From contig NZ_LAJB01000016.1 of assembly GCF_000970685.1 (NCBI RefSeq), forward strand, positions 1 through 47,628: 47,628 nt of DNA. The letters run 5' to 3'. The notes below the pieces were generated by a model. It had not been told where the DNA came from. It saw only the letters and a program-made list of their open reading frames with translations, and made no database searches. The stretch is from Domibacillus indicus. Lineage in GTDB: Bacteria > Bacillota > Bacilli > Bacillales > Domibacillaceae. Below, one piece after another: positions 2,165-21,772 of this stretch (its first letter is position 1; each line of letters begins with the position of its first letter). A program made the position numbers and the translations under genes.

Positions 2165-2968
2165 ATGAATGCAGAAACCAAGGAAAGAGTACGTGTACAT
2201 ATTCAAGGCGTGATGGATCGTTTAATTGAAAGAAGGACGGTTACAGAACCTTTCTTAGAAGCTGAAGTTGCTCAGCGAAATCCTTTCGGGCTTGCTGTAG
2301 TACCGATTGAAGTATGGAAAGGAGCTAAATTTGAGCGTTCTTTCGTCACTACACTTGGCCAGGGTATTTTCGAACAACTAGGTAAAATCATTGCCGAGGG
2401 ATCAGGGGCTTTTGCACAGAATCAGTATGATAAAGCATTAACTATTAACACTTTTAAAACTGAATCGATTGATACAATTATCAAGAGTCAACGAGCCCGG
2501 GCTAAAAAAGGGGAACGCCCGGCACCTAACTTAACTGAAGAAATTGGAAAGCTTGCTGCTTTGGAAAATCCAAGATATGAAGATGTTTCAGTGAAATCGG
2601 ATCTTTATATTCGTCGTCCAGATGGGGGGGAAGAGTATTATTCATTTAAAACAGTGAAGCCAAATTTGGATCAGACAGCAGAAGCCAAACGTAACCTCTT
2701 GCTTTTAAGATTGGGCGATCCAGATTGTAAGGCTTATTTTGCCCTTCCTTACAATCCTGGTGGTGAAGGATACCCTTACAGCGCAGCTGGTCACAGCATT
2801 CCAAATAAATTATTTAATATGGCAGACGACGAATATGTTTTAATCGGTGCAACGCTTTGGAATAAGATCGGAAATGATGAAAATACATATTCTGAACTTT
2901 TAGATGTGTTTCGGCAAGTCGGCCAGCGTTCGTCTCAAAGAATTCGCCAAGAATATTTTGATTTGTAA
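2165..2968 (+). CDS. TdeIII-family type II restriction endonuclease
   Basis: 267 residues with a good ribosome site (GGAGG eight bases before the ATG). The middle and C-terminal blocks match what I remember of the TdeIII family (GGNCC cutters): FGT/LGQGIFEQ near 64-71, SDLYIRRP at 145-152, KTVKPN at 162-167, YFALPYNP, and VLIGATLWNKIG near the end. D146 and K162 would be the PD-(D/E)XK Asp and Lys. The position normally acidic before the Lys is S160 in SFKTVKPN, which is unusual and may mean a relocated acidic residue or lowered activity. It follows the cold-shock nuclease by 23 bases and ends at a terminator. No cognate methylase is adjacent. The C5 methylase at 15.4 kb or one outside the window could protect the host; this is not shown. 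Confidence 0.65.
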   Translation: MNAETKERVRVHIQGVMDRLIERRTVTEPFLEAEVAQRNPFGLAVVPIEVWKGAKFERSFVTTLGQGIFEQLGKIIAEGSGAFAQNQYDKALTINTFKTESIDTIIKSQRARAKKGERPAPNLTEEIGKLAALENPRYEDVSVKSDLYIRRPDGGEEYYSFKTVKPNLDQTAEAKRNLLLLRLGDPDCKAYFALPYNPGGEGYPYSAAGHSIPNKLFNMADDEYVLIGATLWNKIGNDENTYSELLDVFRQVGQRSSQRIRQEYFDL

Positions 2969-3127: not shown

Positions 3128-3559
3128 CTATTGGTAGCCGTTTTTTTCTTTTGAAACATTGATAAAATCTAAGATCTTGTCGATTGCTGAATCAAAATCT
3201 TGATTTAATTCGTGCTCCCAAATTCTTAGCAGGCACCATCCCTCTTCTTGGTAATAGCGGTTCACATCAAGATCTCGTTTCATATTTCTTCCTAATTTTT
3301 TAACCCAAAAGTCTTCATTAGTTTTTGGGATCTTCCCGTGTACGGGGCAACTATGCCAGAAACAAGAATCAATAAAAATTACAGTCTTGTACTTACTGAT
3401 GGAAATATCAGGTGTGCCGAAAAGTTTAGCGTTTTTTCGGAATCTGACACCCTTTTGCCACAAAGCTTTCGACACTTTATTTTCGAGTTTAGATTGCGAA
3501 CGAATATTTTTCATATGATTGGTGTTTTTAGTAGAAGTGTTTTTCTCCATTTTTTTCAC
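3128..3559 (-). CDS. vsr: Vsr-type very short patch repair endonuclease
   Basis: 143 residues with the Vsr fold signature: E26, D51 in GTPDIS, the CFWHSCPVH block with H69 and H74, a PKTNEDFW block, and a closing GWCLLRIWEHEL. Vsr enzymes nick next to T:G mismatches that arise when 5-methylcytosine deaminates, so they normally accompany a C5 cytosine methylase. The nearest C5 methylase in the window is at 15.4 kb and another may lie to the left. Two starts are possible: GTG at 3559, or ATG at 3550, which is better placed after the AAGGATGG ribosome site. The length is normal for the family. It is transcribed toward the TdeIII gene, and the 160-base gap between them holds that gene's terminator. 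Confidence 0.88.
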   Translation of the reverse strand: MKKMEKNTSTKNTNHMKNIRSQSKLENKVSKALWQKGVRFRKNAKLFGTPDISISKYKTVIFIDSCFWHSCPVHGKIPKTNEDFWVKKLGRNMKRDLDVNRYYQEEGWCLLRIWEHELNQDFDSAIDKILDFINVSKEKNGYQ

Positions 3560-3639: not shown

Positions 3640-4268
3640 ATGAACATTATTAAGTTAGTGATTCCTTTGGAAGATATTTTGAATGGATTGTCTACACTTA
3701 TCTGGACAGACAGATTAAGGTCACGTACACTAGGTCTAAAATAGATGAAGAATCTCGATATGACGAAGCGAGAACTCCGTATCTTTACGTCCGATTTCAA
3801 AAAGTAAATGGTGCAGCTGTGCCAGAATGGAAAAACGAGGCGATTGATTATTATGAAAAAAGAGGATTGACACTAATGAACATTTTTACCCCTCAAATGC
3901 GAATCTACACAGTTGGCTTTAACACAAAAAGGATGGAATACGAAGCTGAAATATTAGAAATCCCAAGTGAACGCGGTTCAAATCAATCCGAAGCTCTCAA
4001 TAAAATACTTGAGTGTGAAGGCATCGATATTGTTGATTATAATGACGATATTGCTGTGATAGTAGATGATCACGGAATGTTGAAATCCGGAAATCCCGTA
4101 TTTGAGATAATTACGGAAGACGGATATAAGCTTAAACTTTGCGGAAAGCTTATTTTCGCTCGCAATGATTACAAAGAGGATAGTGTAGATTTAGCGGGCT
4201 TAAGTTTAGGTGACATTGAAAAACTAAAAAATTCATTGAATATTAAATTGACTGGGCTATTGAAATAA
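3640..4268 (+). pseudogene. Unknown protein, N-terminal frameshift
   Basis: An ATG at 3640 after AAGGA opens MNIIKL and then runs into a different frame, ending soon after. A coherent frame with no ATG runs from about 3654 to 4268 and encodes roughly 205 residues, starting SDSFGRYFEW and ending LTGLLK. A single-base deletion near 3653-3660 would unite them. I do not recognise the family. The protein is acidic, with no membrane segment and no evident nuclease triad; a block reading IVDYNDDIAVIVDDHGML is prominent. It lies divergent from vsr in the restriction island, so a defence-linked role is possible but not supported by any motif. The truncated alternative begins at GTG 3819. Confidence 0.5.
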
Positions 4269-4572
4269 TGATATTAAGAGAAAACTAATTTCTGAAGTTG
4301 TAAATAGAAGTAGGTTAAACAGAGAGGAAGGCCTTTTTTATAATACACAGCTGGATGAGTTGATAATACGTGTACAAATTAAAAATTTTTAAAATGAATT
4401 ATACAGATAATTCTTTTTTTCGTATGCTAAAAAAATTCAACCTTGAAATTATAAATGTTTTGATGAAATAGATACCTATTTATGAATAATGTATGGCGGC
4501 ACCTGCACAGTTTATGAATAGGTATTTTAACCGGGACTGGCGACCTCTGAAACTACCGGAGAACGGAAAGGA
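4269..4572. other. Intergenic stretch, nothing recognised
   Basis: AT-rich sequence with no convincing ribosome site or long frame. A 43-codon frame on the plus strand (about 4493-4621) overlaps the decayed gene at 4573-5272 antisense, has no ribosome site, and is not called. Confidence 0.4.
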
Positions 4573-5272
4573 TTATGATCCCTCCAAGATTTCCAGCAGA
4601 GCTCGTGCTTCCTATAAATGACCGGCAAAACAGTTTAAGAGCTTCCTCTGCTTTCGTTTGCTTATTATTCTTGTTTCCGTCCATTTCAATAACTCCACAT
4701 AGCAGGAAAGTTCAATTGCAATAATATCCGGGTCGTTGAACTTGTACACTTCGGAAACTGTTTCATAATTTTTATTCGGATCATCACTTTTATTTGAAGG
4801 ACTTACCACTTTTTTTTGATATTTTGAATTTGCATTCGATTTAGCTTCCTCAAAAACCCCGGTGACATACTCCATAACAAAGCCATATGTGCTGAGCTGC
4901 GCCGCTGCTTCTGCTGTGTACTTTGTATAGTGGTTATATAGAACAGTTAGGCGAGTCTCAAGATCTGCAGGTTTTCTTTTGAATTGAAGAAAAAACAATT
5001 GCTGAACAAATTTTTCCTTCAATGTGTTATCGTTCATTCCTCTTAAAACATCATCGAAAAAACGCTTGGAAAAGTATCTCGAGGTATCGTGTGTTTTTGG
5101 GGTTAATTGGAAAAATGATCGATATTGGTCATCGTGTTTTGGAGATGCCGTGTTGCTGGTATTCCGAAACAAATGCGGCTACAGTTTGTGTGTATCTCTG
5201 GTCGAACCATTCTTCATCCAAATACTTCTTATCAACGCTGGCAAAATCCCAATCCAAATGTTCATCATACAT
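4573..5272 (-). pseudogene. Decayed paralogue of the protein at 25359-26057
   Basis: The original ATG at 5272 has a strong AGGAGG site and reads MYDEHLDWDF, then KKYLDEEWFDQRY and FVSEYQQHG, before a frameshift near 5150-5160. The next frame carries SKRFFDDVLRG, EKFVQQLFFLQF, YTKYTAEAAAQLS and FNDPDIIAIELSCYVELL, then meets TAG at 4612, after which EARALLEILE follows in frame to a TAA at 4573. The intact paralogue at 25359-26057 aligns along the whole length and has Tyr where TAG occurs. So this copy has one indel and one nonsense change. The family is not recognised. Both copies share similar upstream sequence, so a whole gene with its promoter was duplicated. Confidence 0.8.
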
Positions 5273-5561
5273 AAAAAAACCTCCTACTTATTTTGAGTAA
5301 ACAAACTCTTTACATGATTCAGCAGTATTAAAATAGTACCAATATTCCGGTTTTAATTTACATAATATTCTGCATTCTTAACATTTTTTTAATATAGCAC
5401 CACATGCACCTCAAAATGGCCATTGAGGATGTGTATGTCACTGGAAAACTGTCAAAAAAGAGCTGATTGCCATCATTAAAAGCTTGGTCTTGGTCATTGA
5501 ACAGCTGACAGACCGCGTAGAAGAACGCTTTACTTTAAAGTAAAAGAAAGGTCACAGAATA

Positions 5562-5720
5562 AGGCCTTTCTGACATGGGCTGATTAGTTTCTACGTTCGG
5601 GAAAAGAATTGTCTTATTTTGAACACTTCGGTTTATGGGTTTATCTATAAAGAATTGAATTTTACAGGAAAACAGAAAAATAATGGTATATAATTGAATC
5701 ACAGGAAAATAGAGCTATTG
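5562..5720 (+). repeat. Duplicated leader segment, copy B
   Basis: Partner of 1164-1318, with the same ordered blocks. It ends about 20 bases before the start codon of the first gene of the DrmAB-type operon, so it should contain that operon's promoter or leader. A TATATAAT string near 5684-5692 is a plausible -10 region, but no -35 at proper spacing is evident. The rest of 5273-5561 holds the upstream region of the decayed gene and a 28-codon open stretch ending at about 5543 that I cannot identify. Confidence 0.6.
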
Positions 5721-5741
5721 GATAAGAATTGAGGGACGCAA

Positions 5742-6746
5742 ATGAATTTATATAATTTGAAGATCTGGAATGCAGAAAAACCTGATTCTCTTCCAACTTG
5801 GATTAAGCTTGCCTTTACTCTAGGAGCTTATCTAGTCAAAGCAAATACCGAAAAGGGAAAAAGGGTTAATATTGCTATTACAGTCCCACGTGATGAATAT
5901 TTTTCTTTATTTGCAGCGATGGGAATTACTGACGGTATTTATTCATCCAATGACAACAATGATTCATTACGAGACCACGTACTGAAATTGAAAAAAGGAG
6001 ACAGGATCATTTATAAAAACGGTGATTTGGAAAGAAAGGTATCCGTGGTATCAGTTGGCAAAAGCCCAATGGATAAAACTGAAATGATGTTGTACATTCA
6101 AGACCGAAATTTTCATCAAGGAATCCCAGAGCGTCAATGGCAGCAGAGAATTTTTCTTTTAAATGAAAAGTATGAAAAAATAAAACGTACCAGGGTCTTA
6201 GGAGAAAGTGAAAAAATAGGAGTAGACAGCCCTTTACTTAGCCTTCTATATACGACAGAGAAGTTAAATAAAACGGCTTTTTCGCCAATAGAAGCATTCT
6301 ACTTAGTGGGGAAAAAAAATCAATTAATTAGCCAAATGAACGAAACTATTTTTTGTTCTGGTGAGGTTAAGGGTTCTATTAGCAATTTTCTTTTTGTAGA
6401 AGGGCTTAACAACAATAGCAGCTACAGTAATGGAAAATTTATGTCTTCCCTAACAAGAAAAGCGGAGGACAACCTTTCATCGAACACACCCGTGCTATAT
6501 TCAGATGCCACCAGTTTCAAAAAACAGGAGAGAAACTTTAAGAAAAACCCATTCCTGAGTATAATCAGTCGTTCTGACCATGAAGACCGATTGCATGAAG
6601 TCACATTTGAGATCACTAAGTCGATCATACAAGGTAGGAATATTGATTATCTTACCGAAAACCTTGTGGATTTTATAAATAATGAATGCGATTGCATAAT
6701 TCCAGATGGGGTGGAGCTGATTGCATGGAGGGAAGGAATAGGATGA
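5742..6746 (+). CDS. Unknown protein 1 of DrmAB-type operon
   Basis: 334 residues, with a GAGGG ribosome site before the ATG at 5742. No domain I can name. The N-terminus (PTWIKLAFTLGAYLV, then VNIAITVPRDEYFSLFAAMG) looks like the opening of a Rossmann-like or helicase-associated alpha/beta domain but has no Walker motif. The gene ends in an ATGA overlap with the next gene at 6743, so the two are translationally coupled. Class 2 DISARM carries DrmE, a large protein of unknown function next to drmA/drmB; this gene plus the next (334 + 506 residues) could be a two-gene version. That is inference from position and combined length only. The gene looks intact. Confidence 0.6.
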   Translation: MNLYNLKIWNAEKPDSLPTWIKLAFTLGAYLVKANTEKGKRVNIAITVPRDEYFSLFAAMGITDGIYSSNDNNDSLRDHVLKLKKGDRIIYKNGDLERKVSVVSVGKSPMDKTEMMLYIQDRNFHQGIPERQWQQRIFLLNEKYEKIKRTRVLGESEKIGVDSPLLSLLYTTEKLNKTAFSPIEAFYLVGKKNQLISQMNETIFCSGEVKGSISNFLFVEGLNNNSSYSNGKFMSSLTRKAEDNLSSNTPVLYSDATSFKKQERNFKKNPFLSIISRSDHEDRLHEVTFEITKSIIQGRNIDYLTENLVDFINNECDCIIPDGVELIAWREGIG

Positions 6747-8263
6747 ATGACATCACGTTTTTATATAACCTCGAAGAAAAAAAAAATACTTATCGGCATA
6801 TTGAACATAAAACAATAACTGAATTAGCGGAACAATTACAGAATTTCAAATTAAGCTTGGCAAGTGATTTTGCTGAAGAAGAAACCTTGTTAGATTTACA
6901 CAGTTATATTAACAGAATCCTTTTCAATCTCTGCCAAAGTACTAGGCCTTATTCCGATTCACTCGATCAGGATACCTCTGATCTATTGCTAAATAAGTTT
7001 CGACAAACGAAAATGGGTTATCCTGATGTATTTAATAATTTCCTAAAGCCCCTTGCAAAAACGATGCATGCTTTGATGGAAAACAAAGATAACGCTTTGT
7101 TTGATTTTATCTGCGCCCACCTAAATGCTAACCCTAACAATAGTAAGAATTTTTCAATTGTGACGAAACGATCTTTGCCATACTCAGAAAGGGATCTCAT
7201 CTTGGTCAAGGTAAATCCTGTATTGGATGTGAGCTTTTACACAGAAAATGGCTATAGAAAAACAAAGAGAACATTTGATGAAGCGCTGTTTTTAGGTAGC
7301 AGTAATTTCTTTGGATCTTATTCCAGTCGGGTACTTAAGGCTTTTCAAACCACCTTTGTTGCTTATGATTTCTTTCTGAATAAAAACCAAGTGACAAGCA
7401 ATTTTTCTCAATTGCCACAAAAACAGGTGGTAAATACTATTCAAAAAGGAATCATTTTTGAAAACACACTAGTTGACAAAAAAATCCTTGAGATAAAAGA
7501 AGAAAATGCTGCCCAACAAGTGGTTGAAAGAATAATACAGGAGCAAAAAAATATGGGCAAAGAGGAAGAACATCCACATATAATGGCTAGCATCGTATTT
7601 ATAGAGGATGATCGTTTCTTGTTCATTTCCAGAGAATCCAATGTTCGTATTTTATCACCCCACGATAAGAATGATTTTGTAAAACAAATCAATTTCAAAG
7701 ATTTAGAAGAAGATGATTATCTTATTATCCGAAACGATCGGGATACAAAACTGATTGCAGAAGTTGCAGACAAAGAGCTACTGAAAGACAAGGCTGTCCA
7801 ATACCGGAAGCTACAGGAACATTGGAAAAAAAGGTTGCGCACCCATGTTGGAAAATTAGGCCCCCAACGTGTAAGCGACATTCTCAGCCAGAAATATAAA
7901 ATGAAAACAGCTTCCAGCGTATCTGTCCGCAATTGGTGTACGGAGGAAAGCATTTGCCCAAAAGAGCTACCTTTATTATTAGAGGCATTAAAGTATAAAA
8001 AAAACGAAATTGGGAAAATACATCAAGCTATGAAGAAAACTCAGAATGCCCATAGGCAAGCAGGGAGGATTATTACACGTAGCTTAATGGATGAATTGAA
8101 AGAGGACGTATTCGAAAGGTTGAATGAACAAGGATATTATACATTTAACTCCAAGACCTTTAATGGAGCATCTTTCAATATTGAAAGAGTCGTCTCCATT
8201 GACAATAGAAAGTATTCTATCTTTTATCATGATTTGATGAAGCCTATTAATGCCACTAACTAG
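6743..8263 (+). CDS. Unknown protein 2 of DrmAB-type operon
   Basis: 506 residues from the ATG at 6743, chosen because GGAGGGAAGGA lies just upstream and it forms an ATGA overlap with the previous stop; an upstream ATG at 6686 has no ribosome site. The protein is mostly helical at the N-terminus, with a conserved-looking centre (IMASIVFIEDDRFLFIS, then LEEDDYLIIRNDRDTKLIAE). The basic C-terminal region from about residue 365 to 440 (RLRTHVGKLGPQRVSDILSQ, VSVRNWCTEESICPKELPLL) resembles a helix-turn-helix or DNA-contact module. There is no recognised catalytic motif. It lies 15 bases before drmA. It may correspond to the C-terminal part of DrmE, which needs a profile search to test. Confidence 0.6.
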   Translation: MNDITFLYNLEEKKNTYRHIEHKTITELAEQLQNFKLSLASDFAEEETLLDLHSYINRILFNLCQSTRPYSDSLDQDTSDLLLNKFRQTKMGYPDVFNNFLKPLAKTMHALMENKDNALFDFICAHLNANPNNSKNFSIVTKRSLPYSERDLILVKVNPVLDVSFYTENGYRKTKRTFDEALFLGSSNFFGSYSSRVLKAFQTTFVAYDFFLNKNQVTSNFSQLPQKQVVNTIQKGIIFENTLVDKKILEIKEENAAQQVVERIIQEQKNMGKEEEHPHIMASIVFIEDDRFLFISRESNVRILSPHDKNDFVKQINFKDLEEDDYLIIRNDRDTKLIAEVADKELLKDKAVQYRKLQEHWKKRLRTHVGKLGPQRVSDILSQKYKMKTASSVSVRNWCTEESICPKELPLLLEALKYKKNEIGKIHQAMKKTQNAHRQAGRIITRSLMDELKEDVFERLNEQGYYTFNSKTFNGASFNIERVVSIDNRKYSIFYHDLMKPINATN

Positions 8264-8278
8264 AAGGAGGGAACCAAT

Positions 8279-11200
8279 ATGGCAACTAAAAGTTCAATAC
8301 TAGAAGAATCGCTTAAGAATCGTGACCATGTAATAGCCTCGGTAAAAGAGGAGATGATAGGTCCTATGCGGATTAAAGAAAACTTTATGGAATTTAAGAT
8401 TCAAGGGCACACTGTTTTTGAAAAGAAAGAAGAGCTTTACCAGCCTTACTATTGGAGGGTTGGAAATGAGAAAGAAGAAATTCTTCAACGCCAAACACCA
8501 TCTCAGCGTTATGTGAGCGGCCAGCTTTTTCCTATTACATTTGATGGTGAAGAAGGAAGTGAGCCAGAGATCTTAGAAGTGTTGCCTTCTATCCTAGAAA
8601 CAGAAGAAACAGAGCGAACTGTGCCAGTAGATGCAGATGGGGATACAGATTTACTTCCTCAAGGAGATGATCGCAAAACCTCCACAATGGGATTAACCTT
8701 TTGTTTAGATGAGACAGTTCCAAGCTTAAACGTCACGGTTCGCGGCGGTATTTATACTCCCCACAAAGTAAGGCTTAAATTGGAAGAACATTCAAAAACA
8801 TGGTGGATGCGGGAATCCATAGAGGGCTGTATAACGATTAAAGTAAGCGATTTGCTTTCAGAGAAAAACTTTGCAACAAACCTAGACTTCAAAAACTCGA
8901 AAAATGAAAAAATCAGCCACCTTTCCATACAATTACAGGCTCGAATCCGCAAGATACAAGGATTTCATATCATTACAATCAGTATTACAAACCGCTCTTC
9001 TGACCTTTCATTTCCAAAGAACCAATTGACACTTTTTCAATCAGAACTTGAAATAGAAACAGGAGAAGGTTACGAGTTTTCAACTTATCCGAAACCCTAC
9101 CAACTCAAACGAAAGCTCAGCCTGAAAGAAGCTTCTACAGAACTGCTGTATCGAAATCAAGGGACGTTTGCATTTGGCCATAATTGTGCTGCAACTTGGG
9201 CGCAGCATTCAGCCGTCCAATCGATCAGATCTACTTTTCTTCCAGAATTTGAAACGCAAAGCATGACTCCTGACATTCATTTAGAAGATGGCTGCCCCTT
9301 ACAAATTAAAATGAGCGATCTTGCCGGCCTATCATCTCAAAACAATCCAAAGGAAATTCTTCAACCCTTGTTAGAAGGATACAAAAAGTGGATAGACAAA
9401 AAAGAAAGTGAAATCGAACAACTGCCTATTGCCCTTCAGCCAGCTGCGGAGAAACATATTTCTTTATGCCGGTCTAGCCTAACTAGAATGAAACATGGTC
9501 TTTTATTATTAGATAAAGAAAAAACAATGCGGGCATTCCGTTTAGCAAATTTGGCTATTTTGCTTCAACAAGAAAATGGAACAACCAAAAGGTCTGGAAT
9601 CATTCATGAAAAAGGAGGAAAAGTTGAAATTTCGTTTGACCAAAAATATAAAGAAATAATAAAGACAGAAGAAAACATTAGGGGCTCAAAAAATACTTGG
9701 CGTGGATTCCAAATCGCTTTTTTTCTAATGTCTATTAGTTCTTTTGTAGAGGAAACGGACGATTCAAGAGAGATTGTCGATTTAATTTTTTTCCCGACAG
9801 GTGGAGGAAAAACCGAAGCTTATTTAGGGGTAGCAGCCTTTCAAATGTTGCTACGGAGACTAAATGATCCTTCAGACGCTGGCGTAGACGTCATTATGCG
9901 TTACACATTAAGGCTGTTGACTGCTGATCAATTTCAGCGATCATCAAGGTTAATCTGCGCATTAGAATACCTTCGCAAGAATAATGAAACAGAATTAGGC
10001 TCAGTTCCCTATTCCATTGGCATATGGGTAGGCGGAAAAACAACACCAAACAAGAATTCAGAAGCTAATATACAGCTTCTTCACTTAACAAAAAACAAAC
10101 GTGATGCCAAGAACTTTGTAATCAGCAACTGCCCTTGGTGTGGCGCCAAACTAGGACATTATTCTAGTGAAAACGGCCAGAGGAAGAATAATAAAATTCA
10201 CCTTGGTTATAAAAATGAAAAAAACAGCTTGAAAATCTACTGTCCTGACATACAGTGTACCTTTCACGACGAACTTCCTATTTATATAGTAGATGAAACT
10301 ATCTACAAGAAAAGGCCAACTTTTTTAATTGGAACAGTTGATAAGTTTGTCCAGCTTGTGTGGCAACCCGAAGCTCGTAAGCTTTTTGGAATTGATACGG
10401 AGGGAGAACGCTTCGCAAGCCCCCCGACATTAATCATTCAAGATGAACTTCATCTCATATCAGGTCCGCTGGGGTCTTTATCAGGCCTTTTTGAGATTTT
10501 AATCGAAGAGCTGTGCACAAAGGAAAGAGGCAAACAAAGAATAAAACCTAAAATTATCGCAGCAACAGCAACCATTTCCCAATTTGAAGAACAAATTTTA
10601 GCCCTATTCGGGAGAGAAGAAGATAAAGCACGCCTTTTTCCTAGTCCAGGCCTGGATCATGACGATTCTTATTTCGCTAAACCTGCACGGGATGAAAAAG
10701 ACGGAGAGCTTATGCCGGGAAGAAAATACGTTGGTGTTTATACAAATTCTATTAAAATTATGATGAGCCAAGTTATAACATTTTCAGCCATTATTCAATC
10801 CGCAGCTGAAATTGAAAGGAAAGAACGTGATCCGTTTTGGACCCTTTTGGCATTTTATAATAGCCTTCGTGATTTAGGAGCAGCCTTGACATTAACGCAG
10901 ACGGATATTCCACAATATATGACTTCTATGACCCAGAGGAAAGGGACACAAAACTCTGTCCGCAATGTTGGCAGGGTTCTCGAGTTGACTTCAAGAAAGC
11001 AAAGCGATGAAATTTCTAAAACAATCGATGATTTGAAAGTGAAATTTGATCCTAATCAAAATAAGCAGGAAGCATTGGACTTGTGCTTGGCTTCAAACAT
11101 TATTGAAGTAGGCATCGACATTGACAGGCTCTCTGCCATGGCTATTGTCGGCCAGCCAAAAATGACTGCCCAATATATCCAGGTCAGCGGGCGTGTAGGC

Positions 11201-11785
11201 AGAAGATGGTGGGAACGGCCGGGAGTCATCTTTACTTTATACTCAAATACAAGGTCACGAGATAAATCCCATTTCGAGCATTTTCAAGAATACCATCAAA
11301 AACTATATGCTCAAGTAGAGCCAACCAGTGTTACCCCTTTTTCCGATTCTTGCCTAGACAGAGGACTCAAAGCAATAATAGTGGGGTTTTTGCGGCAAGC
11401 ACTAACGTCAGATGTTGCCCGCTCCCCGGATCCTGCATACATTAAAAAACATTTGGTTCCAAGAATCGTTCCTTTCTATGAGAGGATCATCCAACGTACC
11501 GAATTGATAGATCCAGAACAAGTAGAGTCGGTTAAAACTCATTTCAAGGGGCTGATGGAAAGCTTGAAGCATGGCAACTACACCACTTGGCAAGTAGAGG
11601 GGGACGCAGCTGGCTTCATGTACCCTGCAGGATCGCATATCCCGCAATATACGCATCCAAAACCGGAAGCCATGATAAATACGATGAGGAATGTGGATGT
11701 CGAGTGCCGAGGCATGATTTCAATGCTTTACGAAGGTGAAGACAAAAAAGAAGACGCAGGCAGCTGGGAAGGGTTATTTATATGA
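8279..11785 (+). CDS. drmA: DISARM helicase DrmA
   Basis: 1168 residues with a strong GGAGGG site. Superfamily 2 helicase motifs are visible: Walker A FFPTGGGKTEAYLG near 503-516, a DELH box in LIIQDELHLISGP near 720, AATATI (motif III), and the C-terminal lobe with NIIEVGIDIDRLSAMAIVGQ and QYIQVSGRVGRRWW near 965. Between the lobes, CPWCGAKL and a later CPDIQC form a likely zinc site near 618-660. A long N-terminal region of about 480 residues precedes the motor. In characterised DISARM, DrmA pairs with DrmB as the core complex that engages incoming DNA in a methylation-dependent way. Here drmB follows with a 4-base ATGA overlap. All motor motifs look intact. Confidence 0.9.
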   Translation: MATKSSILEESLKNRDHVIASVKEEMIGPMRIKENFMEFKIQGHTVFEKKEELYQPYYWRVGNEKEEILQRQTPSQRYVSGQLFPITFDGEEGSEPEILEVLPSILETEETERTVPVDADGDTDLLPQGDDRKTSTMGLTFCLDETVPSLNVTVRGGIYTPHKVRLKLEEHSKTWWMRESIEGCITIKVSDLLSEKNFATNLDFKNSKNEKISHLSIQLQARIRKIQGFHIITISITNRSSDLSFPKNQLTLFQSELEIETGEGYEFSTYPKPYQLKRKLSLKEASTELLYRNQGTFAFGHNCAATWAQHSAVQSIRSTFLPEFETQSMTPDIHLEDGCPLQIKMSDLAGLSSQNNPKEILQPLLEGYKKWIDKKESEIEQLPIALQPAAEKHISLCRSSLTRMKHGLLLLDKEKTMRAFRLANLAILLQQENGTTKRSGIIHEKGGKVEISFDQKYKEIIKTEENIRGSKNTWRGFQIAFFLMSISSFVEETDDSREIVDLIFFPTGGGKTEAYLGVAAFQMLLRRLNDPSDAGVDVIMRYTLRLLTADQFQRSSRLICALEYLRKNNETELGSVPYSIGIWVGGKTTPNKNSEANIQLLHLTKNKRDAKNFVISNCPWCGAKLGHYSSENGQRKNNKIHLGYKNEKNSLKIYCPDIQCTFHDELPIYIVDETIYKKRPTFLIGTVDKFVQLVWQPEARKLFGIDTEGERFASPPTLIIQDELHLISGPLGSLSGLFEILIEELCTKERGKQRIKPKIIAATATISQFEEQILALFGREEDKARLFPSPGLDHDDSYFAKPARDEKDGELMPGRKYVGVYTNSIKIMMSQVITFSAIIQSAAEIERKERDPFWTLLAFYNSLRDLGAALTLTQTDIPQYMTSMTQRKGTQNSVRNVGRVLELTSRKQSDEISKTIDDLKVKFDPNQNKQEALDLCLASNIIEVGIDIDRLSAMAIVGQPKMTAQYIQVSGRVGRRWWERPGVIFTLYSNTRSRDKSHFEHFQEYHQKLYAQVEPTSVTPFSDSCLDRGLKAIIVGFLRQALTSDVARSPDPAYIKKHLVPRIVPFYERIIQRTELIDPEQVESVKTHFKGLMESLKHGNYTTWQVEGDAAGFMYPAGSHIPQYTHPKPEAMINTMRNVDVECRGMISMLYEGEDKKEDAGSWEGLFI

Positions 11786-13722
11786 GAGATATACCGCTTA
11801 GAAGAAGCCAATTGATTACCACATTCGGGCCAGGGTCTCTTGTCGTCAGTCAAGATGGGGAGACGGCTTTGGTTGGGTCTTTAGACAAATGGTACCATGA
11901 TAAGGATGGTGTTCCTTTAAACTCGTTTGGAGAATACTTGGTTTTTGAGCCGAGGTTGCAATCTCTACTCGGGGTCAATAAACTGCTAGCCCCCCCAGAT
12001 TTCAGGGCTAGTTACAGCGCGCAATATAAAGGAAGCAGTGCGCCCCAAGATTATATGAATCTCTATATCCCTTTACTGAGGTATCCAACCTGGCATTACT
12101 GCCCGCATTGCCGCAATTTATATCAACGGTCATTATCATTAAAAACAAATAAAATTGACTGCAAAAAGTGTCAAAGAGCCATTAAAATGATCCAAGTTCC
12201 ATTTGTAATCATCTGTGAACAGGGGCACATCTCAGATTTCCCTTGGAGAGAATGGGTTCACCGAAATGAGCACGCAACCTGTGAGAAGGATATGTCATTA
12301 AGATCCACAGGTGGCTCCACGCTCGATTCGCTTAAAGTGGTTTGTGAATGCAAGGCAGAGCGAAGCTTGAAGGGCATTATGAGCAGGCGTCATACCAGTG
12401 GAGACGATAATGGAGTCAGCGAATTAAGCCGTTCATTAAACCAGCCTAAAGGAGGAACAGCAGAGAATTACTATACATGCCCAGGTACACGGCCATGGAT
12501 GGGATCTCTGGAAGAAAAAGAAAATTGCAACGTTTATCCAATAGCAGCTCTTAAGAATTCAATAAACGTCTACTATTCAAACACCATAAGCGCTATTTAT
12601 TTGCCTGGTGAAAACAAGGAGGTAGACGAAATCATCAACATGTTCGAAAAATACAAAATCACTAATGAGATTCTTGATACCCATGATACGTTGAAGGGAA
12701 AAATAAAATTAATTAGGTTAATTGCCCCTCCGAAAATTGTAGATTATACAGATGAGGATATCGAACAAGCCATCTTGTATTTAAAGTCAGGATCCGATTA
12801 CAAGGAAAGTCAAGAAAAGAATCAAAGCGTGGAGCTGGAACTTCGAAAAAAAGAATACGATACCCTGATTCATGAAATTGATAGAGAGGACTTGAAAGTT
12901 TTAAAAGAATGGGACCAAGTAAATGGGGCAAGGGAAGAAGTTGAAGAAATTATTTCTTCTTATTTTGGCCTGTTGCACCGCGTTACTAAATTAAAAGAAA
13001 CAATAGTTCTAGCAGGCTTCACCCGTTCCAAGCCTTTTTCTACTGATGCTAAGCATATCCAAGCACTGAGAAATGGGCGAGAGCTGCTTTTTAAGTCTTA
13101 TGAATCTCCTGAAAACAACTGGCTTCCAGCTTTTAAAGTGTTTGGCGAGGGGATCTTTTTCACGCTGGATATAGAAAAATTAAACGATTGGGAAAACCGG
13201 GCAGCAGTCCGAAATTATTTTAAGAAATACCTTAAAAGGTATAAAAAAGCAACAAATGACCAAGGTATGGAGTTAAAGCCGCGGTCTATCCTACTTCACA
13301 CCCTGTCACACCTTTTAATTGATCAATTAGCCTTAAAATGTGGTTATAATACAACGTCACTTAAAGAAAGGTTATACTTAGACCCTGAACAGTCCGGGGT
13401 GCTTATATATACGTCCTCTGGGGATTCCGAAGGAACGTTTGGCGGAGTCGTGCGAATGGGAAGGATGAAAAACTTTGTGCCGAATTTGTACGCAGCCCTT
13501 AACAAAGCGTTATGGTGCAGCTCGGATCCAGTATGCACTGAAATTGGCACAAAAGAAGGACAAGGCTTGGATAAGTTAAATGGAGCAGCCTGCCATAGTT
13601 GTTCGCATTTGCCCGAAACCTCCTGTGAGCATAACAACTTATTGTTGGATCGTACATTTTTAATGGACGAAGAAATAGGTTTTTTTAAAGATTTGAATGT
13701 TATTCTCAGGTCAGAAGCATAA
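11782..13722 (+). CDS. drmB: DISARM protein DrmB (DUF1998)
   Basis: 646 residues; its ATG overlaps the drmA stop (ATGA). The N-terminus RSQLITTFGPGSLVV is typical of DUF1998 proteins. Two zinc ribbons appear near 108-135 (YCPHCRNLY ... CKKC), then CEQGHISDFPWREW. A helical region spans 330-420. The DUF1998 core starts near 505 (LLHTLSHLLIDQLALKCGY, then YTSSGDSEGTFGGV). The C-terminal Cys cluster (CSSDPVC, CHSCSHLPETSC) is near 575-620. DrmB partners DrmA in the DISARM core. It is the last gene of the operon and is followed by a terminator. drmC (phospholipase-D type) and a DISARM methylase are absent from the operon. Confidence 0.88.
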   Translation: MRDIPLRRSQLITTFGPGSLVVSQDGETALVGSLDKWYHDKDGVPLNSFGEYLVFEPRLQSLLGVNKLLAPPDFRASYSAQYKGSSAPQDYMNLYIPLLRYPTWHYCPHCRNLYQRSLSLKTNKIDCKKCQRAIKMIQVPFVIICEQGHISDFPWREWVHRNEHATCEKDMSLRSTGGSTLDSLKVVCECKAERSLKGIMSRRHTSGDDNGVSELSRSLNQPKGGTAENYYTCPGTRPWMGSLEEKENCNVYPIAALKNSINVYYSNTISAIYLPGENKEVDEIINMFEKYKITNEILDTHDTLKGKIKLIRLIAPPKIVDYTDEDIEQAILYLKSGSDYKESQEKNQSVELELRKKEYDTLIHEIDREDLKVLKEWDQVNGAREEVEEIISSYFGLLHRVTKLKETIVLAGFTRSKPFSTDAKHIQALRNGRELLFKSYESPENNWLPAFKVFGEGIFFTLDIEKLNDWENRAAVRNYFKKYLKRYKKATNDQGMELKPRSILLHTLSHLLIDQLALKCGYNTTSLKERLYLDPEQSGVLIYTSSGDSEGTFGGVVRMGRMKNFVPNLYAALNKALWCSSDPVCTEIGTKEGQGLDKLNGAACHSCSHLPETSCEHNNLLLDRTFLMDEEIGFFKDLNVILRSEA

Positions 13723-13772: not shown

Positions 13773-13885
13773 AGTATGTTCTTACAATGTTTATGTGAAG
13801 CAGTTATACCAGTTGCTGTTTGAATTTAGGATTGAATTATAATGTGATATTATAGGAGAAATCTATATAAGTAATATTTAAAAAG

Positions 13886-13920
13886 AGAGCATCTAAAATT
13901 TAAAAAGTTTTAGATGCTCT
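13886..13920. terminator. Symmetric hairpin, probable terminator
   Basis: A perfect 13-base stem (AGAGCATCTAAAA / TTTTAGATGCTCT) with a 9-base loop and A-rich and T-rich flanks. It could stop transcription in either direction and isolates the DrmAB-type operon from the XRE/recombinase unit. Confidence 0.65.
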
Positions 13921-13959
13921 TCATATTTTAAAGAAAACCTACAATTTGTCTGAAATATA

Positions 13960-14133: not shown

Positions 14134-14542
14134 ATGGCCAAATTTAAAAGTGGATATACTCTAGGGGATCAAAATAAGAAGGTAGCTGCTTTTTATAAAA
14201 GCTGAAAATTTTCATTCTGAATTTGGTAAAAGACTAAGAGCTGTTAGGAAAGAAAAAGGTTTATCTCAGACCGCAGTTTGCAAAGTGTTGAAATTACCTA
14301 CATCTGTTTTATCAGGGTATGAAACAGGACAAAGAAATCCTACCATAACAAGACTTAAAATATTAGCAGACTTTTATGGTGTAACTACAGACTGGCTTAT
14401 AGGACGGGATCGATATATGTATCATAAGAGTGACTTAATTATTCAAGAGCCAAGAACCAATTATTTTTTAAACGATCTTTTGGATGCGAGTGAAGAGGAT
14501 CTGCAAAAGCTCCAGCAGCTTTGGGAAATCATTAACGAATAA
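14134..14542 (+). pseudogene. XRE-family regulator, frameshifted
   Basis: The ATG at 14134 follows AAAAAGGAG and gives 23 codons (MAKFKSGYTL ... AFYKS) before TGA at 14203. From there the next frame is a clear lambda-repressor-like helix-turn-helix: FGKRLRAVRKEKGLSQ, VLSGYETGQRNPTITRLKIL, YGVTTDWLIGR, then an acidic tail. Skipping one A in the AAAA tract near 14197-14200 joins both. Without it, translation could only begin inside the HTH at GTG 14285, losing the first helices. The product would be a small DNA-binding repressor, possibly controlling the recombinase gene 35 bases downstream. A genuine indel and a sequencing error cannot be told apart here. Confidence 0.7.
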
Positions 14543-14577
14543 TAGTGTTCATACTCTAAAAAGAAAGGGTGTAAAAG

Positions 14578-15180
14578 GTGGAGCTTGGTTACGCAAGAGT
14601 GAGTACAATTGGTCAGGATTTAGACACTCAAGTTGAACGGCTAGAGGCAGCTGGAGTACAAAAAGATCACTTATTTATTGAAAAAGTAACCGGAACAAAA
14701 ATGGCAGCGCGAGAACAAATCCAAGCACTTTTAAAGCATGCCCGTTCTGGTGATCATATTTATGTAACCAAGATTGATCGTTTGGCCAGAAGCATTTTGG
14801 ATTTGAATAAGATTGTCAGTGGGTTAATAGAGAAGGAAATCAGTATTACTTTCATCGATCACAATATGACATTTAAAGCCGATGCAAAAGATGATCCGTT
14901 TCAGATGCTGCTGTTTAATACTCTTGGCAGCTTTGCGCAGTTTGAACGAGATATGATCGTTTCTCGAACAGGAGAAGGGAGAAAACGGGCTATAAAAAAC
15001 GGTAAAAAGATGGGACGTAAAGGACAGCCTGAACAGAACATTAAGCAAGCCATAAAACTATTTGAGGCCAGAGAAGAAAAGGGAATGACTATTTCCGATA
15101 TTTCAAAATTAACTGGTGTTCCTCGGTCTACAATTTATGCGGAATATAAAAAACTAAAGAACCAGATGATTAAAACTTGA
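14578..15180 (+). CDS. Serine recombinase, resolvase/invertase family
   Basis: 200 residues from a GTG preceded by GAAAGGGTG. The N-terminal catalytic domain reads LGYARVST, with the nucleophile Ser at residue 9, followed by GQDLDTQVERL, VTGTK, IDRLARSILDL and FAQFERDMIVSRT. A C-terminal helix-turn-helix ends the protein (TISDISKLTGVPRSTIYAEYK). This is the small resolvase/Pin type found in Tn3-like transposons, plasmids and inversion systems. No transposase is next to it, so the substrate is unclear; the 240-base region after it, or the repeats upstream of the XRE gene, could hold its sites. It is co-oriented with the XRE gene and may be co-transcribed. Confidence 0.9.
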   Translation: MELGYARVSTIGQDLDTQVERLEAAGVQKDHLFIEKVTGTKMAAREQIQALLKHARSGDHIYVTKIDRLARSILDLNKIVSGLIEKEISITFIDHNMTFKADAKDDPFQMLLFNTLGSFAQFERDMIVSRTGEGRKRAIKNGKKMGRKGQPEQNIKQAIKLFEAREEKGMTISDISKLTGVPRSTIYAEYKKLKNQMIKT

Positions 15181-15423: not shown

Positions 15424-16680
15424 ATGAATTATAACGCGATTTCTCTATTTTCAGGAGCTATGGGGCTGGATTTAGGAATAGAGAAAGCTGGAATAGAAAT
15501 AAAGGTTTGTGTTGAAAAGGATAAATGGGCTAAAAGTACAATAGAAAGAAATACAAATATTCCAGTTATCCATAAGGACATAACGGCAGTTACTTCAGAG
15601 GAGATATTAGAGAAAGCGAACTTAAAAAAAGGAGAAGTTTTTTTAATTGCTGGTGGCCCGCCATGCCAATCTTTTAGCTCTGCAGGTAAACAACGAGGAC
15701 TAGCTGATTTTAGAGGAAATACTATCATCAGGTATTTAAATATCGTAGAGGAGATCGAACCTCAATACTTTATTATGGAAAATGTTAGAGGATTGATTTC
15801 TGCAAAACTAAATGAAGTGCCAGTAGAATTTAAAGAGTATGAGGATATAAAAGATGTTAAAGGAAGTGTAATGTACTTTTTGCAAAATGAATTTAAAAAG
15901 TATGGATACACGATAAGTTTTACTTTATTTAACGCTGCTAACTATGGAGTACCTCAAAAACGAGAAAGAATGATAATTTTCGGTTATAAAGGTAAGGAAA
16001 GAATCCCGTTACCAAGACCTACTCATAGTGAAAATGGAACTATAAGGGACACTCTTCCATGGGTTTCCATAGATAAAGTTATAGGAGATTTAGAACCGGC
16101 AACGGAAAAAGATTATATTCCTTTAGGAGAAAAGGCTAAAAAATACCTAAGTATGCTAAAACAAGGGCAGTATTGGAAGGATCTTCCTGAAGGGGTAGCG
16201 AAGGAAGCTATGGGTAATTCATACGAATTGGGTGGAGGAAAGACAGGTTTCTTTAGAAGGTTGAATATGAGTGAACCATCACCTACCTTAGTTACTTCTC
16301 CGTCCATGCCTGCTACAATGTTATGTCATCCAACCGATCTTAGACCTTTATCAATAAAAGAGTATGCAAGAATTCAACAATTTCCTGATCATTGGATTTT
16401 TGAAGGCGGAATAAGAGAAGTTTATAAGCAAATAGGAAATGCGGTTCCGGTAGGATTAGGATATATAGCGGCAAAAAATATTCTTAATTTCCATGAAGAA
16501 AGAAACTTATTAGTGCCCTATTCAAGATATAAAAATACAACTGATTTTGAATTTAATAACTTTTTTTTAACACAATTAGGAAAATCATCAATAGTTAAAA
16601 AACAGCAGAAAAAAGAGGAAGTTATTAATTTTGAAAGTAAAGATTTTGAAGAACAAGTAATATTAGATTTAGAAATTTAA
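15424..16680 (+). CDS. C5 cytosine DNA methyltransferase
   Basis: 418 residues with all main C5-methylase motifs: I (SLFSGAMGLDLG at 7-18), IV with the catalytic Cys (GGPPCQSFSSAGKQRG near 77-92), VI (ENVRGL near 119), VIII (PQKRERMIIFGY), IX (RPLSIKEYARIQQFPDHW) and X (QIGNAVPVGLG). A tail of about 70 residues follows motif X. It transfers a methyl group from SAM to cytosine in a specific site. It is convergent with a nuclease-like gene at 16726 across a shared terminator, the arrangement of many type II R-M pairs. It could also serve as the methylase for the DrmAB operon (class 2 DISARM uses a C5 enzyme), but it has its own promoter region and lies beyond two other genes. Confidence 0.93.
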   Translation: MNYNAISLFSGAMGLDLGIEKAGIEIKVCVEKDKWAKSTIERNTNIPVIHKDITAVTSEEILEKANLKKGEVFLIAGGPPCQSFSSAGKQRGLADFRGNTIIRYLNIVEEIEPQYFIMENVRGLISAKLNEVPVEFKEYEDIKDVKGSVMYFLQNEFKKYGYTISFTLFNAANYGVPQKRERMIIFGYKGKERIPLPRPTHSENGTIRDTLPWVSIDKVIGDLEPATEKDYIPLGEKAKKYLSMLKQGQYWKDLPEGVAKEAMGNSYELGGGKTGFFRRLNMSEPSPTLVTSPSMPATMLCHPTDLRPLSIKEYARIQQFPDHWIFEGGIREVYKQIGNAVPVGLGYIAAKNILNFHEERNLLVPYSRYKNTTDFEFNNFFLTQLGKSSIVKKQQKKEEVINFESKDFEEQVILDLEI

Positions 16681-16684
16681 TATG

Positions 16685-16727
16685 GAGAGAATAGGGACAA
16701 TTATCTTCCCTATTCTCTCTTTTTTTT
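16685..16727. terminator. Bidirectional terminator between methylase and nuclease
   Basis: GAGAGAATAGGG and CCCTATTCTCTC form a perfect 12-base stem with an 11-base loop, followed by eight T residues that run to the nuclease stop codon. It lies exactly between two convergent genes. Confidence 0.9.
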
Positions 16728-17412
16728 AGTCTTCTATTAAAAACTCTTCAACATTATCTAGTAGAACTTTTAAATGGGCTAGGATATCGTTATAAGCCAC
16801 ATCTGTTAAACTCCAATAGTCATGACCAACAACACGTTTAATTGGACCACTATATGTCCAACCACAATTTGTTTCTATACATGCGGCTAATAATGAATTT
16901 TCATAACGTGATAATTCTATTGTAAGACGAGGAGCTTGAGAGCCAGTTAAAGTATTTTTCTGTGTTTTCAATTGTGTAAAGTAAAGATTGTTATTTACAT
17001 ATGTAATGACATCTACACCTTGTAGCTTAATACCTAGTTCTTTTTCCAAAGAAAAAACATTAGAAGACAAATTAGCTATTTCTTCCCAAAACAGCCCTAA
17101 CTTTGTATTAATTCCACGAGTGATAGCATTAGATGCACTAAGAGTAGGCGCTCCAAGCAACTCATAGAGATTATTTCTTCGAGATAGTGCAGTAAGCTTT
17201 ATATTCTCTAAGTAAGGATAGAGATTCCTTTCAAATTCTTCAAATTTATCCTTAAGAAGATGCGCATTGTTAGGCTTGCTGGCTAAGTAATCAGGAAGTT
17301 CGATCTCTAAGGCTTTTTCCCATAATTTATACTCGTCTAGTGTAGGATCTTGAACCCGTAGTTTACTAATTGTTTCATAAAGGTCTGCTTGAAAGTTGGA
17401 AATATTAATCAC
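16726..17412 (-). CDS. Candidate type II restriction endonuclease
   Basis: 228 residues, not a family I recognise. A plausible PD-(D/E)XK core is E110/E111 on a helix, D134 in QGVDVITYV, and Q147-x-K149 in YFTQLKTQKN, with the spacing expected for a beta-hairpin carrying a D...QxK triad. The N-terminal half is helical. After the core come short helices and IETNCGWTYSGP. It is convergent with the C5 methylase and shares its terminator, so it is probably the cognate endonuclease. The start ATG at 17412 has a weak site (AGGAGT) upstream. The endonuclease role is inferred from the triad and from position. Confidence 0.65.
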   Translation of the reverse strand: MINISNFQADLYETISKLRVQDPTLDEYKLWEKALEIELPDYLASKPNNAHLLKDKFEEFERNLYPYLENIKLTALSRRNNLYELLGAPTLSASNAITRGINTKLGLFWEEIANLSSNVFSLEKELGIKLQGVDVITYVNNNLYFTQLKTQKNTLTGSQAPRLTIELSRYENSLLAACIETNCGWTYSGPIKRVVGHDYWSLTDVAYNDILAHLKVLLDNVEEFLIED

Positions 17413-17747: not shown

Positions 17748-18032
17748 GTGTCCGAATTGGAACGTAAACCTGCAGGCAAAAAATACAACCTTGATTTTAA
17801 GAAAACGATTGTGGATTTGTATCATTCTGGCAGCTCAGTTAAAGAATTAAACAGCGAATATGGCGTATCAGAAGTAACGATTTATAAATGGGTGAAAGAC
17901 TTTACCCCTATCGGTTCAGAGAAAGAGGCACTGACACCAAAAGAGTTAGCCGAGATTCAGAAAGAAAACCTTCGGTTAAAACAGGAGGTAGAAATCCTAA
18001 AAAAGGCTATGGCCATATTCGCGAAAAAGTAA
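17748..18032 (+). CDS. IS3-family transposase OrfA
   Basis: 94 residues from a GTG start. It contains an HTH_Tnp_1 domain (YNLDFKKTIVDLYHSGSS, YGVSEVTIYKWVKDF) and a C-terminal leucine-zipper-like helix (ENLRLKQEVEILKKAMAIF). OrfA binds the element's ends; the full transposase is made by -1 frameshifting into orfB at the CTAAAAAAGG run near 17997-18006. Confidence 0.92.
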   Translation: MSELERKPAGKKYNLDFKKTIVDLYHSGSSVKELNSEYGVSEVTIYKWVKDFTPIGSEKEALTPKELAEIQKENLRLKQEVEILKKAMAIFAKK

Positions 18033-18908
18033 CTGAAGCAGAGCTAACCCATTTTATCGAAGAACACAAGGATCAATACCCTGTTCAGAAGATGTGCGAA
18101 GTACTGGCCGTGCCAAGAAGCAGCTACTATGATTCCCTTGAAAAAACGATGTCAAAGCGTGAACATGAAAACCAGGAACTCACGAAGGAGATCCAACGGA
18201 TTCACCTGGAAAGTAAGGCGCGTTACGGCGCTCCGAAAATTCATAAAATCTTATTAAACAACGGGTTTTATTTAAGCCTAAAGCGTGTCCAGCGCCTAAT
18301 GAGAAAGGCAGGCCATTCGTTCGATTATCAAGAGAAAATACCGTCCCTGCCCCTCAAAAGAAAAGGTTGTGCAGCTGGATAATCTTTTAAAACGAGACTT
18401 CTCTACCTGCACGGTCAATGAGAAATGGGTGGCGGATATTACGTATATTCCTACGTTAAAAGACGGCTGGTGCTATCTGGCCTCTGTATTGGATCTGCAT
18501 TCGAAAAAAATCGTTGGCTATTCTTTTTCTCGTTCTATGACATCAGAATTGGTGATTGAAGCACTTCAAAACACCTGTTTTTCTCAAAAGCCCCAAAAGG
18601 GCTTAATTCTCCATACTGATCTTGGCTTACAATATACCAGCAGTGAGTTTACTCAGTATGTTCAAAAACACGATATTCAGCAGTCTTTCAGCCAGAAAGG
18701 CTGTCCTTATGACAATGCCTGTATAGAATCATTTCACGCCATACTAAAGAAAGAAGAAGTATATCATACGCAATACACAGACTATCGAGCTGCAAATCTG
18801 GCTATATTCCAGTTTATAGAAGGCTGGTATAACCGAAACAGAATCCATAGCAGTATTGGTTATCAGACACCTCAAGCCATTGAGGATGAAATTAGAAAAG
18901 CAGCTTAA
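17999..18908 (+). pseudogene. IS3-family transposase OrfB, frameshifted
   Basis: The first part reads PVQKMCEVLAVPRSSYYDSL and RYGAPKIHKILLNNG, typical of the IS150-type HTH_21 region. After MRKAGH the frame is lost; removing one C at 18313-18314 restores IRSIIKRKYRPCPSKEKVVQ and continues into the DDE integrase core. That core has WVADITYI with the first Asp, LHTDLGLQY with the second Asp, and the usual Glu in CIESFHAILKKEEVY. So a one-base insertion breaks an otherwise complete orfB. Transposition would need repair or a helper copy. Confidence 0.9.
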
Positions 18909-19402: not shown

Positions 19403-19442
19403 AAAACCGGTGGATTCCGCATGAATCAAACCGGTTTTTTTT
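19403..19442 (+). terminator. Strong intrinsic terminator upstream of bet/recT-like gene
   Basis: AAAACCGG (19403) pairs with CCGGTTTT (19431), with an inner GATTC/GAATC pairing, and is followed by T residues to 19442. It sits about 100 bases before the recombinase gene, so it terminates something upstream or attenuates that gene. Confidence 0.75.
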
Positions 19443-19543
19443 GCGTTTACATGCTCATGATCCCGTTAAAAGAAGCGTATTTGCTCAAAGAGAGCAGTGC
19501 GCTTTTTTTATATAAAAATTTCTTGGAAAGGGTGTTTATCAAA

Positions 19544-21529: not shown

Positions 21530-21610
21530 TATGCAGCCGCTATGATTGGTGTGCAAAAGAGTGCTAAAAAAATGGGATGCTGCCGGCATTCTCTCAAAGG
21601 AGGAATCATT

Positions 21611-21772
21611 GTGTTAGCAAGCATTAACAGGAAATTTTATCAATCACCCAAAACGGCCTGTTTCTTATTAAGCTTGAAGAAAAAACGCGCTGAGAAGGCA
21701 TTTATCTGCTTTCAAGATGCAGCGGAAAGCGGCAAAAGCCTGATAGGCGGGGATGGTGGAAGGTTATGCTGA
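21611..21772 (+). CDS. Small basic unknown protein
   Basis: 53 residues from a GTG directly behind AAAGGAGG, the best ribosome site in this block; an in-frame ATG at 21542 has none. It starts MLASINRKFYQ. No family recognised. Its stop overlaps the next gene's start region, so it belongs to the same transcript. Confidence 0.5.
   Translation: MLASINRKFYQSPKTACFLLSLKKKRAEKAFICFQDAAESGKSLIGGDGGRLC

Follow-up and report, generated by a model that had tools for sequence, protein, structure and literature searches.

A recurrent DISARM-type operon in which DrmE is probably encoded as two proteins

Contig NZ_LAJB01000016.1 of Domibacillus indicus (47,628 nucleotides, one entire contig of a 3.6 Mb genome, hereafter the window) carries the genes of the helicase DrmA and its partner DrmB, the core of DISARM (defence island system associated with restriction-modification), preceded by two genes that we call X and Y. 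The question is whether X and Y encode the two parts of a divided DrmE or the front end of a new system built on DrmA and DrmB, these being the two possibilities raised by a first-pass annotation of the sequence. The operon is as tight and intact as that annotation described it: all four open reading frames (ORFs) are whole and lie on the plus strand, X and Y as well as drmA and drmB overlap by 4 bases, and 15 bases separate Y from drmA (Table 1). The start of Y was set at the ATG at position 6743; the mechanical ORF begins earlier, and relatives begin near 6743. Our best reading is a conserved DISARM variant that is not canonical class 2 DISARM, ARMADA or Druantia, its putative function being deduced from sequence, and this variant probably makes DrmE as two proteins, X (the N-terminal part) and Y (the C-terminal part).

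The earlier identification of DrmA and DrmB holds. The two proteins match their PADLOC families with E 1.4e-203 and 9.1e-79, respectively, and the nearest solved structure to DrmA is that of Serratia DrmA (7s9v, E 6.8e-134). DrmB is above its NCBIfam cut-off, and DrmA scores 868.8 bits on the NCBIfam model DISARM_DrmAS, which is under the cut-off of 950; models of the Druantia protein DruE match DrmA weakly (best E 1.8e-5, PADLOC). A DrmA helicase adjoining a separate DrmB/DUF1998 protein, the arrangement that marks DISARM of any class, is therefore present. The DrmA motor motifs GGGKT, DELH, TAT and GRVGR, previously called intact, are all present. Residues 75-139 contain 16 D/E versus 4 K/R, and this segment aligns with the trigger loop of Serratia DrmA, given as residues 176-232 in PMC9142583. 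The intact motor motifs and the trigger-loop-like segment show, at the level of sequence, a DrmAB core that looks active.

That Y is a homologue of the C-terminal part of DrmE is well supported by sequence comparison. A Y profile and the C-terminal part of seven fused (single-protein) DrmE aligned along almost the whole of Y (hhalign probability 99.35, E 5.4e-21). The Pfam family DrmE_C (PF24957) matched Y of the window with E 1.2e-5 and 25.5 bits against a cut-off of 27 in hmmscan, and it reached 28 bits for this protein in the genome search. When E up to 0.1 is allowed, the family is found in 12 of the 17 members of the Y alignment, Y of the window among them. PF24957 was above the cut-off in 11 of 397 genomes, two of them with a fused DrmE of ~800 amino acids (aa) (L029 and L030; L and G numbers are our labels for loci and genomes) and the others with a Y of ~505-525 aa. 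The NCBIfam model DrmE_fam (NF038316) gave no match to Y of the window in the NCBIfam scan; it matched two relatives under its curated cut-off, Y of G158 over positions 323-833 of 838 (E 2.1e-10) and Y of the Nostoc plasmid over positions 393-802 (E 3.6e-18).

The division into X and Y is not confined to this genome. X-Y was found beside DrmA-DrmB in 24 loci, each counted once: 20 in Bacillales-type genomes and four on plasmids (one each from Priestia, Nostoc, Rhodococcus and Deinococcus), so that the split form occurs in Bacillota and on plasmids of Cyanobacteriota, Actinomycetota and Deinococcota; one genome (G069) carries two X-Y loci. Gene order is X-Y-DrmA-DrmB in 21 of the 24 loci. The exceptions are Rhodococcus and Deinococcus, where a NERD/UvrD helicase separates Y from DrmA, and G392, where the order is DrmA-DrmB-X-Y with a NERD helicase upstream. 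The gaps between X and Y range from -38 to +6 bases in 16 loci, and all four ORFs are intact in 20 of the 24. In G399 the contig end cuts drmA, so DrmB is not visible; drmA of Scopulibacillus and Y of Priestia are each split over two ORFs, and in Nostoc X and Y are separated by a transposase gene. Matches to Y and DrmA also occur close to the record ends of a second Nostoc plasmid (AP018322). The least certain X is that of Rhodococcus, which falls outside the X cluster at E 1e-8 and was matched by blastp from the Deinococcus X with E 5.4e-4; the Deinococcus front end lies across the record start (X E 2.8e-12, Y E 6.5e-19, NERD helicase E 1e-32, all of them small-set E-values). X and Y travel as a pair, and a broken-gene artefact is ruled out by a split that is conserved and intact in 20 of the 24 loci. 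The first-pass annotation had named two outcomes that would speak against its proposal, X and Y proving to be fragments of one gene or the set occurring once without kept order; we observed neither.

The Y search of 150 related genomes matched seven, the window's own genome included, and the 17-row Y alignment gave 15 matches in 14 of the 397 genomes of the order, none with an internal stop. The alignment found 13 loci in a scan of species genomes, several of which are the same contigs, and the genome scan with the Y sequence alone found nothing. No relatives of Y were found in viral contigs or phage records, and no fused DrmE was found in plasmids with L055 as the query.

The predicted folds are consistent with a helicase-like pair. 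In the AlphaFold2 model, X has a RecA1-like fold into which a Tudor-like barrel is inserted; Y is predicted to combine a superfamily 2 (SF2) RecA2-like domain with DrmE_C. The fold matches of X include SF2 RecA1-type domains over its full length; the barrel alone resembles Mfd, TraI and Tudor domains in structure comparison. With Foldseek, neither X nor Y had a PDB match at E 0.001, and the best value for X, the only query run against BFVD, was 2.5e-3; VIA-align only reorders the Foldseek candidates. The Walker A motif (GxxxxGK[ST]) is absent from all 17 X, all 17 Y and all seven fused DrmE, and a DExx string occurs in none of the 17 X and in two of the 17 Y, Y of the window not being one of the two. 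Neither X nor Y has the combination of Walker A and DExH that marks an active SF2 helicase. Since neither has Walker A, X:Y, as modelled, resembles a pseudo-helicase in two parts, with DrmA next to it as the active helicase.

The place of X is the weaker part of the argument. The seven fused DrmE have 796-898 aa compared to 840 aa for X and Y together, and X occupies the place of the DrmE N-terminal third in gene order. Direct comparison of X with DrmE N-termini was negative throughout and does not support the assignment: hhalign gave E 0.086, alignment scores were inside the shuffled range, and hmmsearch in both directions was no better than reversed controls. Because these sequence tests give no support, we only infer that X is the N-terminal part of DrmE, from its position, length and predicted fold class. 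Of the division of DrmE proposed in the first-pass annotation, the part concerning Y is well supported, whereas the part concerning X found no backing in sequence comparison. The alternative is that only Y derives from DrmE and that X is an unrelated, separately acquired protein (e.g., a DNA- or ligand-sensing subunit), which would make the pair a new two-subunit sensor. This alternative is favoured by the failure of every sequence method to tie X to DrmE, by the Tudor-like barrel in X, and by the lack of an above-chance family match: X matched nothing in the Pfam, PADLOC and NCBIfam scans, and a single chance-level Pfam match appeared in one of the 17 X alignment members. It is opposed by the match of the G158 Y, which starts at position 323 of the 838-position DrmE family and leaves nearly the length of X, by the location of X where the DrmE N-terminus would be, by the RecA1-type matches across the whole of X, and by the joint movement of X and Y, even behind DrmB in G392. 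We consider an unrelated X unlikely, although it deserves to be taken seriously.

The phylogeny of DrmA was examined in a tree of 31 rows, rooted at the midpoint and containing several long rows. A branch with support 93/81 separates the 17 X-Y rows from all others. Deinococcus and Rhodococcus join next (99/95 and 100/100), Deinococcus lying between Rhodococcus and the X-Y rows, and then two fused-DrmE NERD operons of the same phylum, L055 and L057 (99/98). A third operon of this kind, L068, clusters with L067 and L072 (96/91), and the class 1 and class 2 rows are across the midpoint from the X-Y rows. Fused DrmE directly precedes DrmA in L029, L030 and L067; in L055, L057 and L068 the order is fused DrmE, NERD helicase, DrmA, and in L056 fused DrmE is followed by a NERD helicase, after which the contig ends. 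The NERD helicase that follows X-Y in Rhodococcus and Deinococcus is of the kind that follows fused DrmE. Genes of UvrD-type helicases were located at L055 9661-11457, L056 8995-10758, L057 6368-8131, L068 7663-9399, L059 10365-12059 and L099 4192-6099, those of L059 and L099 having a NERD domain by Pfam. In more than one phylum, a UvrD-type helicase is encoded in the interval that separates DrmE (or X-Y) from DrmA, or else upstream of DrmA, and the operons with a UvrD-type/NERD helicase are a further DISARM-like variant. A Lactiplantibacillus plasmid (L072) has the order C5 methylase - 801 aa protein (3895-6300) - DrmA - DrmB; the 801 aa protein has no Pfam or NCBIfam match, DrmE models included, and therefore L072 was not counted as a DrmE locus.

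Comparison to known systems places the operon among DISARM but apart from its described classes. With class 2 (DrmE-DrmA-DrmB-DrmC-DrmMII) it shares a DrmE-related product before DrmA, a C5 methylase that is often in the neighbourhood, and DrmA and DrmB that are ~33% and ~29% identical to those of L029; it differs in having DrmE as two genes, whereas the controls L029 and L030 carry a single DrmE ORF (804 and 796 aa), in lacking DrmC, in a methylase that is detached and varies in family, and in the tree position of its DrmA, away from the class 2 rows. The fused-DrmE operons with a NERD/UvrD helicase (L055, L057, L068; NF038316) likewise have a DrmE-type protein before DrmA-DrmB, no DrmC in the stretches fetched and a C5 methylase nearby (in L068 also Vsr), but their DrmE is one protein of 832-870 aa, and the window has no NERD helicase. 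Class 1 (DrmD-DrmMI-DrmA-DrmB-DrmC; L073, L075) has in common the pair DrmA-DrmB as its core and the DrmA segment that aligns with the trigger loop; in contrast, the operon here is without the SNF2 helicase DrmD and the PglX-like adenine methylase DrmMI, PF02384 has no match on the window contig, and DrmA of the window is ~100 N-terminal residues shorter than the Serratia protein. ARMADA and Druantia, as presented in PMC12458937, share the YprA-family helicase core, but the OB-DUF1998 region is typically fused to their helicase, as in the Druantia protein DruE (a YprA helicase with fused OB-CON-DUF1998), whereas DrmB, with DUF1998/MZB, is a separate protein here; the BrxHII-like helicase and PglX-like methylase of ARMADA are not in the operon. 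Gene content thus rules out both identities. DrmE is not mentioned in the main text of PMC12458937, and neither a split DrmE nor a DrmE fold is described among the titles and abstract openings of the literature searched.

The first-pass annotation had also reported that drmC and a methylase are missing. As for drmC, this is borne out: a search of 16 genomes for the phospholipase D (PLD) domain PF13091 found none in or adjoining 17 X-Y operons, while both class 2 controls show an operonic PLD gene, and for the other seven loci the check consisted only of annotation or of blastp with a single DrmC. The Discussion of PMC9142583 describes DrmC as dispensable and frequently missing in DISARM. Larger PLD-containing genes lie ~2 kb away in G069 (contig C4, 808 aa) and Parageobacillus (815 aa, a PLD-SF2 helicase), and a PLD gene is annotated ~7 kb downstream in Deinococcus. 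In or near the islands, PLD-containing genes of 808-830 aa were seen at L037 4649-7096 (a PLD-SF2 helicase by Pfam), L078 2601-5048, L080 2531-4957 and L082 8660-11152 (on a different contig from its operon); it is possible that they encode a nuclease acting with DrmAB.

As for the methylase, none is inside the operon, but a C5 methylase gene is located on the same strand 1.7 kb downstream, 1,710 bases from drmB. After joining split matches, the 16 genomes contain 26 C5 methylase genes (PF00145) above the cut-off, and one lies within 5 kb of 11 of the 17 operons (0.13 expected under uniform placement) and within 12 kb of 15 (0.23 expected), the latter limit having been chosen after the distances were known. 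For the other two operons, those of G399 and G797, no linked methylase is seen on the X side, and on the drmB side both are cut off by the end of the contig. A C5 methylase was present in all three later loci (G244, 0.5 kb; G392, 10.7 kb; Ornithinibacillus, 6.7 kb) and in two of the four plasmids (Priestia, ~3 kb across the record start; Rhodococcus, 3.1 kb); none is annotated near the Nostoc or Deinococcus plasmid loci, where plasmid gene tables are incomplete and the Deinococcus view covers 10 kb on the X side.

It can be asked whether the operon is the functionless remnant of a decaying class 2 DISARM that lost drmC and the methylase and had drmE broken. The gene content, without drmC and drmMII, and the single drmE of class 2 agree with such a history; conversely, the four ORFs are intact here and in most other loci, Y matches are free of internal stops, the X-Y gaps are narrow and DrmA is separate from class 2 in the tree, so that decay is largely refuted and very improbable. 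We assign an equally slight chance to a DNA-repair or housekeeping helicase complex of the MrfAB type: the YprA family includes the repair protein MrfA (as stated in PMC12458937), but the distribution is patchy (14 of 397 genomes), copies reside on plasmids, and McrBC, GmrSD, AIPR and type II restriction genes are neighbours. A different doubt, compatible with a two-protein DrmE, is that the linked C5 methylases reflect only a general defence-island effect, with no functional tie to X-Y-DrmAB, which is a serious possibility, if somewhat below an even chance. The methylases belong to several families and vary in orientation and distance; they are often near a NgoFVII-, EcoRII- or NaeI-type restriction gene, and several have such a gene, or one of AIPR type, as a likely nuclease partner of their own. 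AIPR genes are concentrated in some of these islands, three of five (in G084, G356 and G799) being within ~6 kb of a C5 methylase. On the other hand, the linkage is specific: compared to the 15 of 17 operons for C5 methylases, PF02384 is near none and PF01555 near one, and none of 19 HsdR genes is within 12 kb of a C5 methylase. Type I restriction genes are without comparable linkage.

If the operon is a DISARM variant with a two-protein DrmE, X would supply the RecA1-like N-terminal half of DrmE, and X:Y would be an SF2 helicase without catalytic activity, acting by binding DNA or by regulating the loading of DrmAB; we lean slightly toward such a DNA-reading or regulatory role. DrmAB would stay inactive as long as the loop is in place, and phage DNA bearing a 5' single-stranded overhang would displace it; gating of this kind, by analogy with Serratia DISARM, is reasonably likely. 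Released DrmAB would translocate, blocking or unwinding phage DNA, and any degradation would come from a nuclease encoded elsewhere, an outside supply for which the chances appear balanced. What spares host DNA would be its structure and, with less confidence, also the linked C5 methylase, whose service in self-marking we regard as somewhat doubtful. A bolder combination, improbable as a whole, is that both forms of DrmE, the split and the fused, are pseudo-helicases of RIG-I/Hef/XPF type that carry an inserted Tudor-like barrel, inspect DNA and license DrmAB, and that the nuclease-free X-Y-DrmAB operon is a modular helicase effector relying on any adjacent C5-type restriction-modification system, the methylase protecting the host and the 5'-overhang ends left by restriction evicting the DrmA trigger loop. 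If all of this were true, DISARM would be a processor of restriction products, not a self-contained restriction system.

The roles of DrmD and DrmE are named as future work in the Discussion of Bravo et al. 2022 (PMC9142583). A natural split of DrmE would provide two smaller proteins with roles that are separable genetically. From the predicted folds comes a concrete hypothesis for DrmE, that it is a dead helicase partner of DrmA. Through the methylase linkage, one can also test whether adjacent restriction-modification genes lend DISARM its self-marking and, perhaps, DNA ends.

Table 1. Coordinates of the X-Y-DrmA-DrmB operon, its domains and nearby features in the window.
Feature	Position	Strand	Remarks
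X	5742-6746	+	334 aa, intact ORF; read as N-terminal part of split DrmE
Inserted Tudor/SH3-like barrel in X (~residues 84-142)	5991-6167	+	AlphaFold2 model; barrel-only matches
Y	6743-8263	+	506 aa, intact ORF; homologous to C-terminal part of DrmE
SF2 RecA2-like domain with helical insert, Y residues 5-243 (predicted)	6755-7471	+	
DrmE_C domain (PF24957), Y residues 285-450	7595-8092	+	Pfam
DrmA, YprA-family SF2 helicase	8279-11785	+	1168 aa, intact ORF
Acidic segment, DrmA residues 75-139	8501-8695	+	aligns with trigger loop of Serratia DrmA
DrmB, DUF1998/MZB zinc-binding partner	11782-13722	+	646 aa, intact ORF; PADLOC, Pfam, NCBIfam
Strong hairpin, possible terminator	13885-13921	+	folding z -5.9 versus shuffles
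C5-cytosine DNA methyltransferase, outside operon	15424-16680	+	PF00145 E 2.5e-64
Possible restriction endonuclease, convergent with methylase	16726-17412	-	weak Eco47II-like PF09553 E 0.016, below cut-off
Vsr mismatch endonuclease	3128-3559	-	PF03852 E 4.8e-19

The terminator claimed after drmB is weaker than stated. The AT-rich hairpin directly 3' of drmB does not fold better than shuffled sequences (z -0.04); the strong hairpin of Table 1 is ~160 bases past drmB and has a T-poor tail.

Around the operon, the window contains type II restriction endonuclease genes of SinI and TdeIII type plus the weak Eco47II-like one, at 136-891 (-), 2165-2968 (+) and 16726-17412 (-); enzymes of the SinI, TdeIII and Eco47II types cut GGWCC or GGNCC, and Vsr is a usual companion of C5 methylases. 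A second C5 methylase of the window genome, 41% identical to that of the window, is at a contig end (G000 contig C15 31-1143, L084) and may form a pair with the SinI-type gene that opens the window contig. Because a helix-turn-helix (HTH) regulator, a resolvase and a transposase (HTH_Tnp_1 and rve integrase core) are situated between and beside the methylase (14285-15180 and 17748-18908), the island looks rearranged. Further on (19421-23841), a RecT-like recombinase (PF03837) and an ArdC-like anti-restriction protein (PF08401/PF18818) are phage- or plasmid-like cargo. In other islands, AIPR abortive-infection genes were noted in G121, G084, G356 and G799, and in L045 and L079 they adjoin a C5 methylase of ~580 aa. 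A 609 aa AAA_5 protein and a 423 aa protein of no family are encoded beside the operon in L032 (12873-15988), with homologues in L022, L026 and L036; we presume that this pair may be McrBC- or LlaJI-like.

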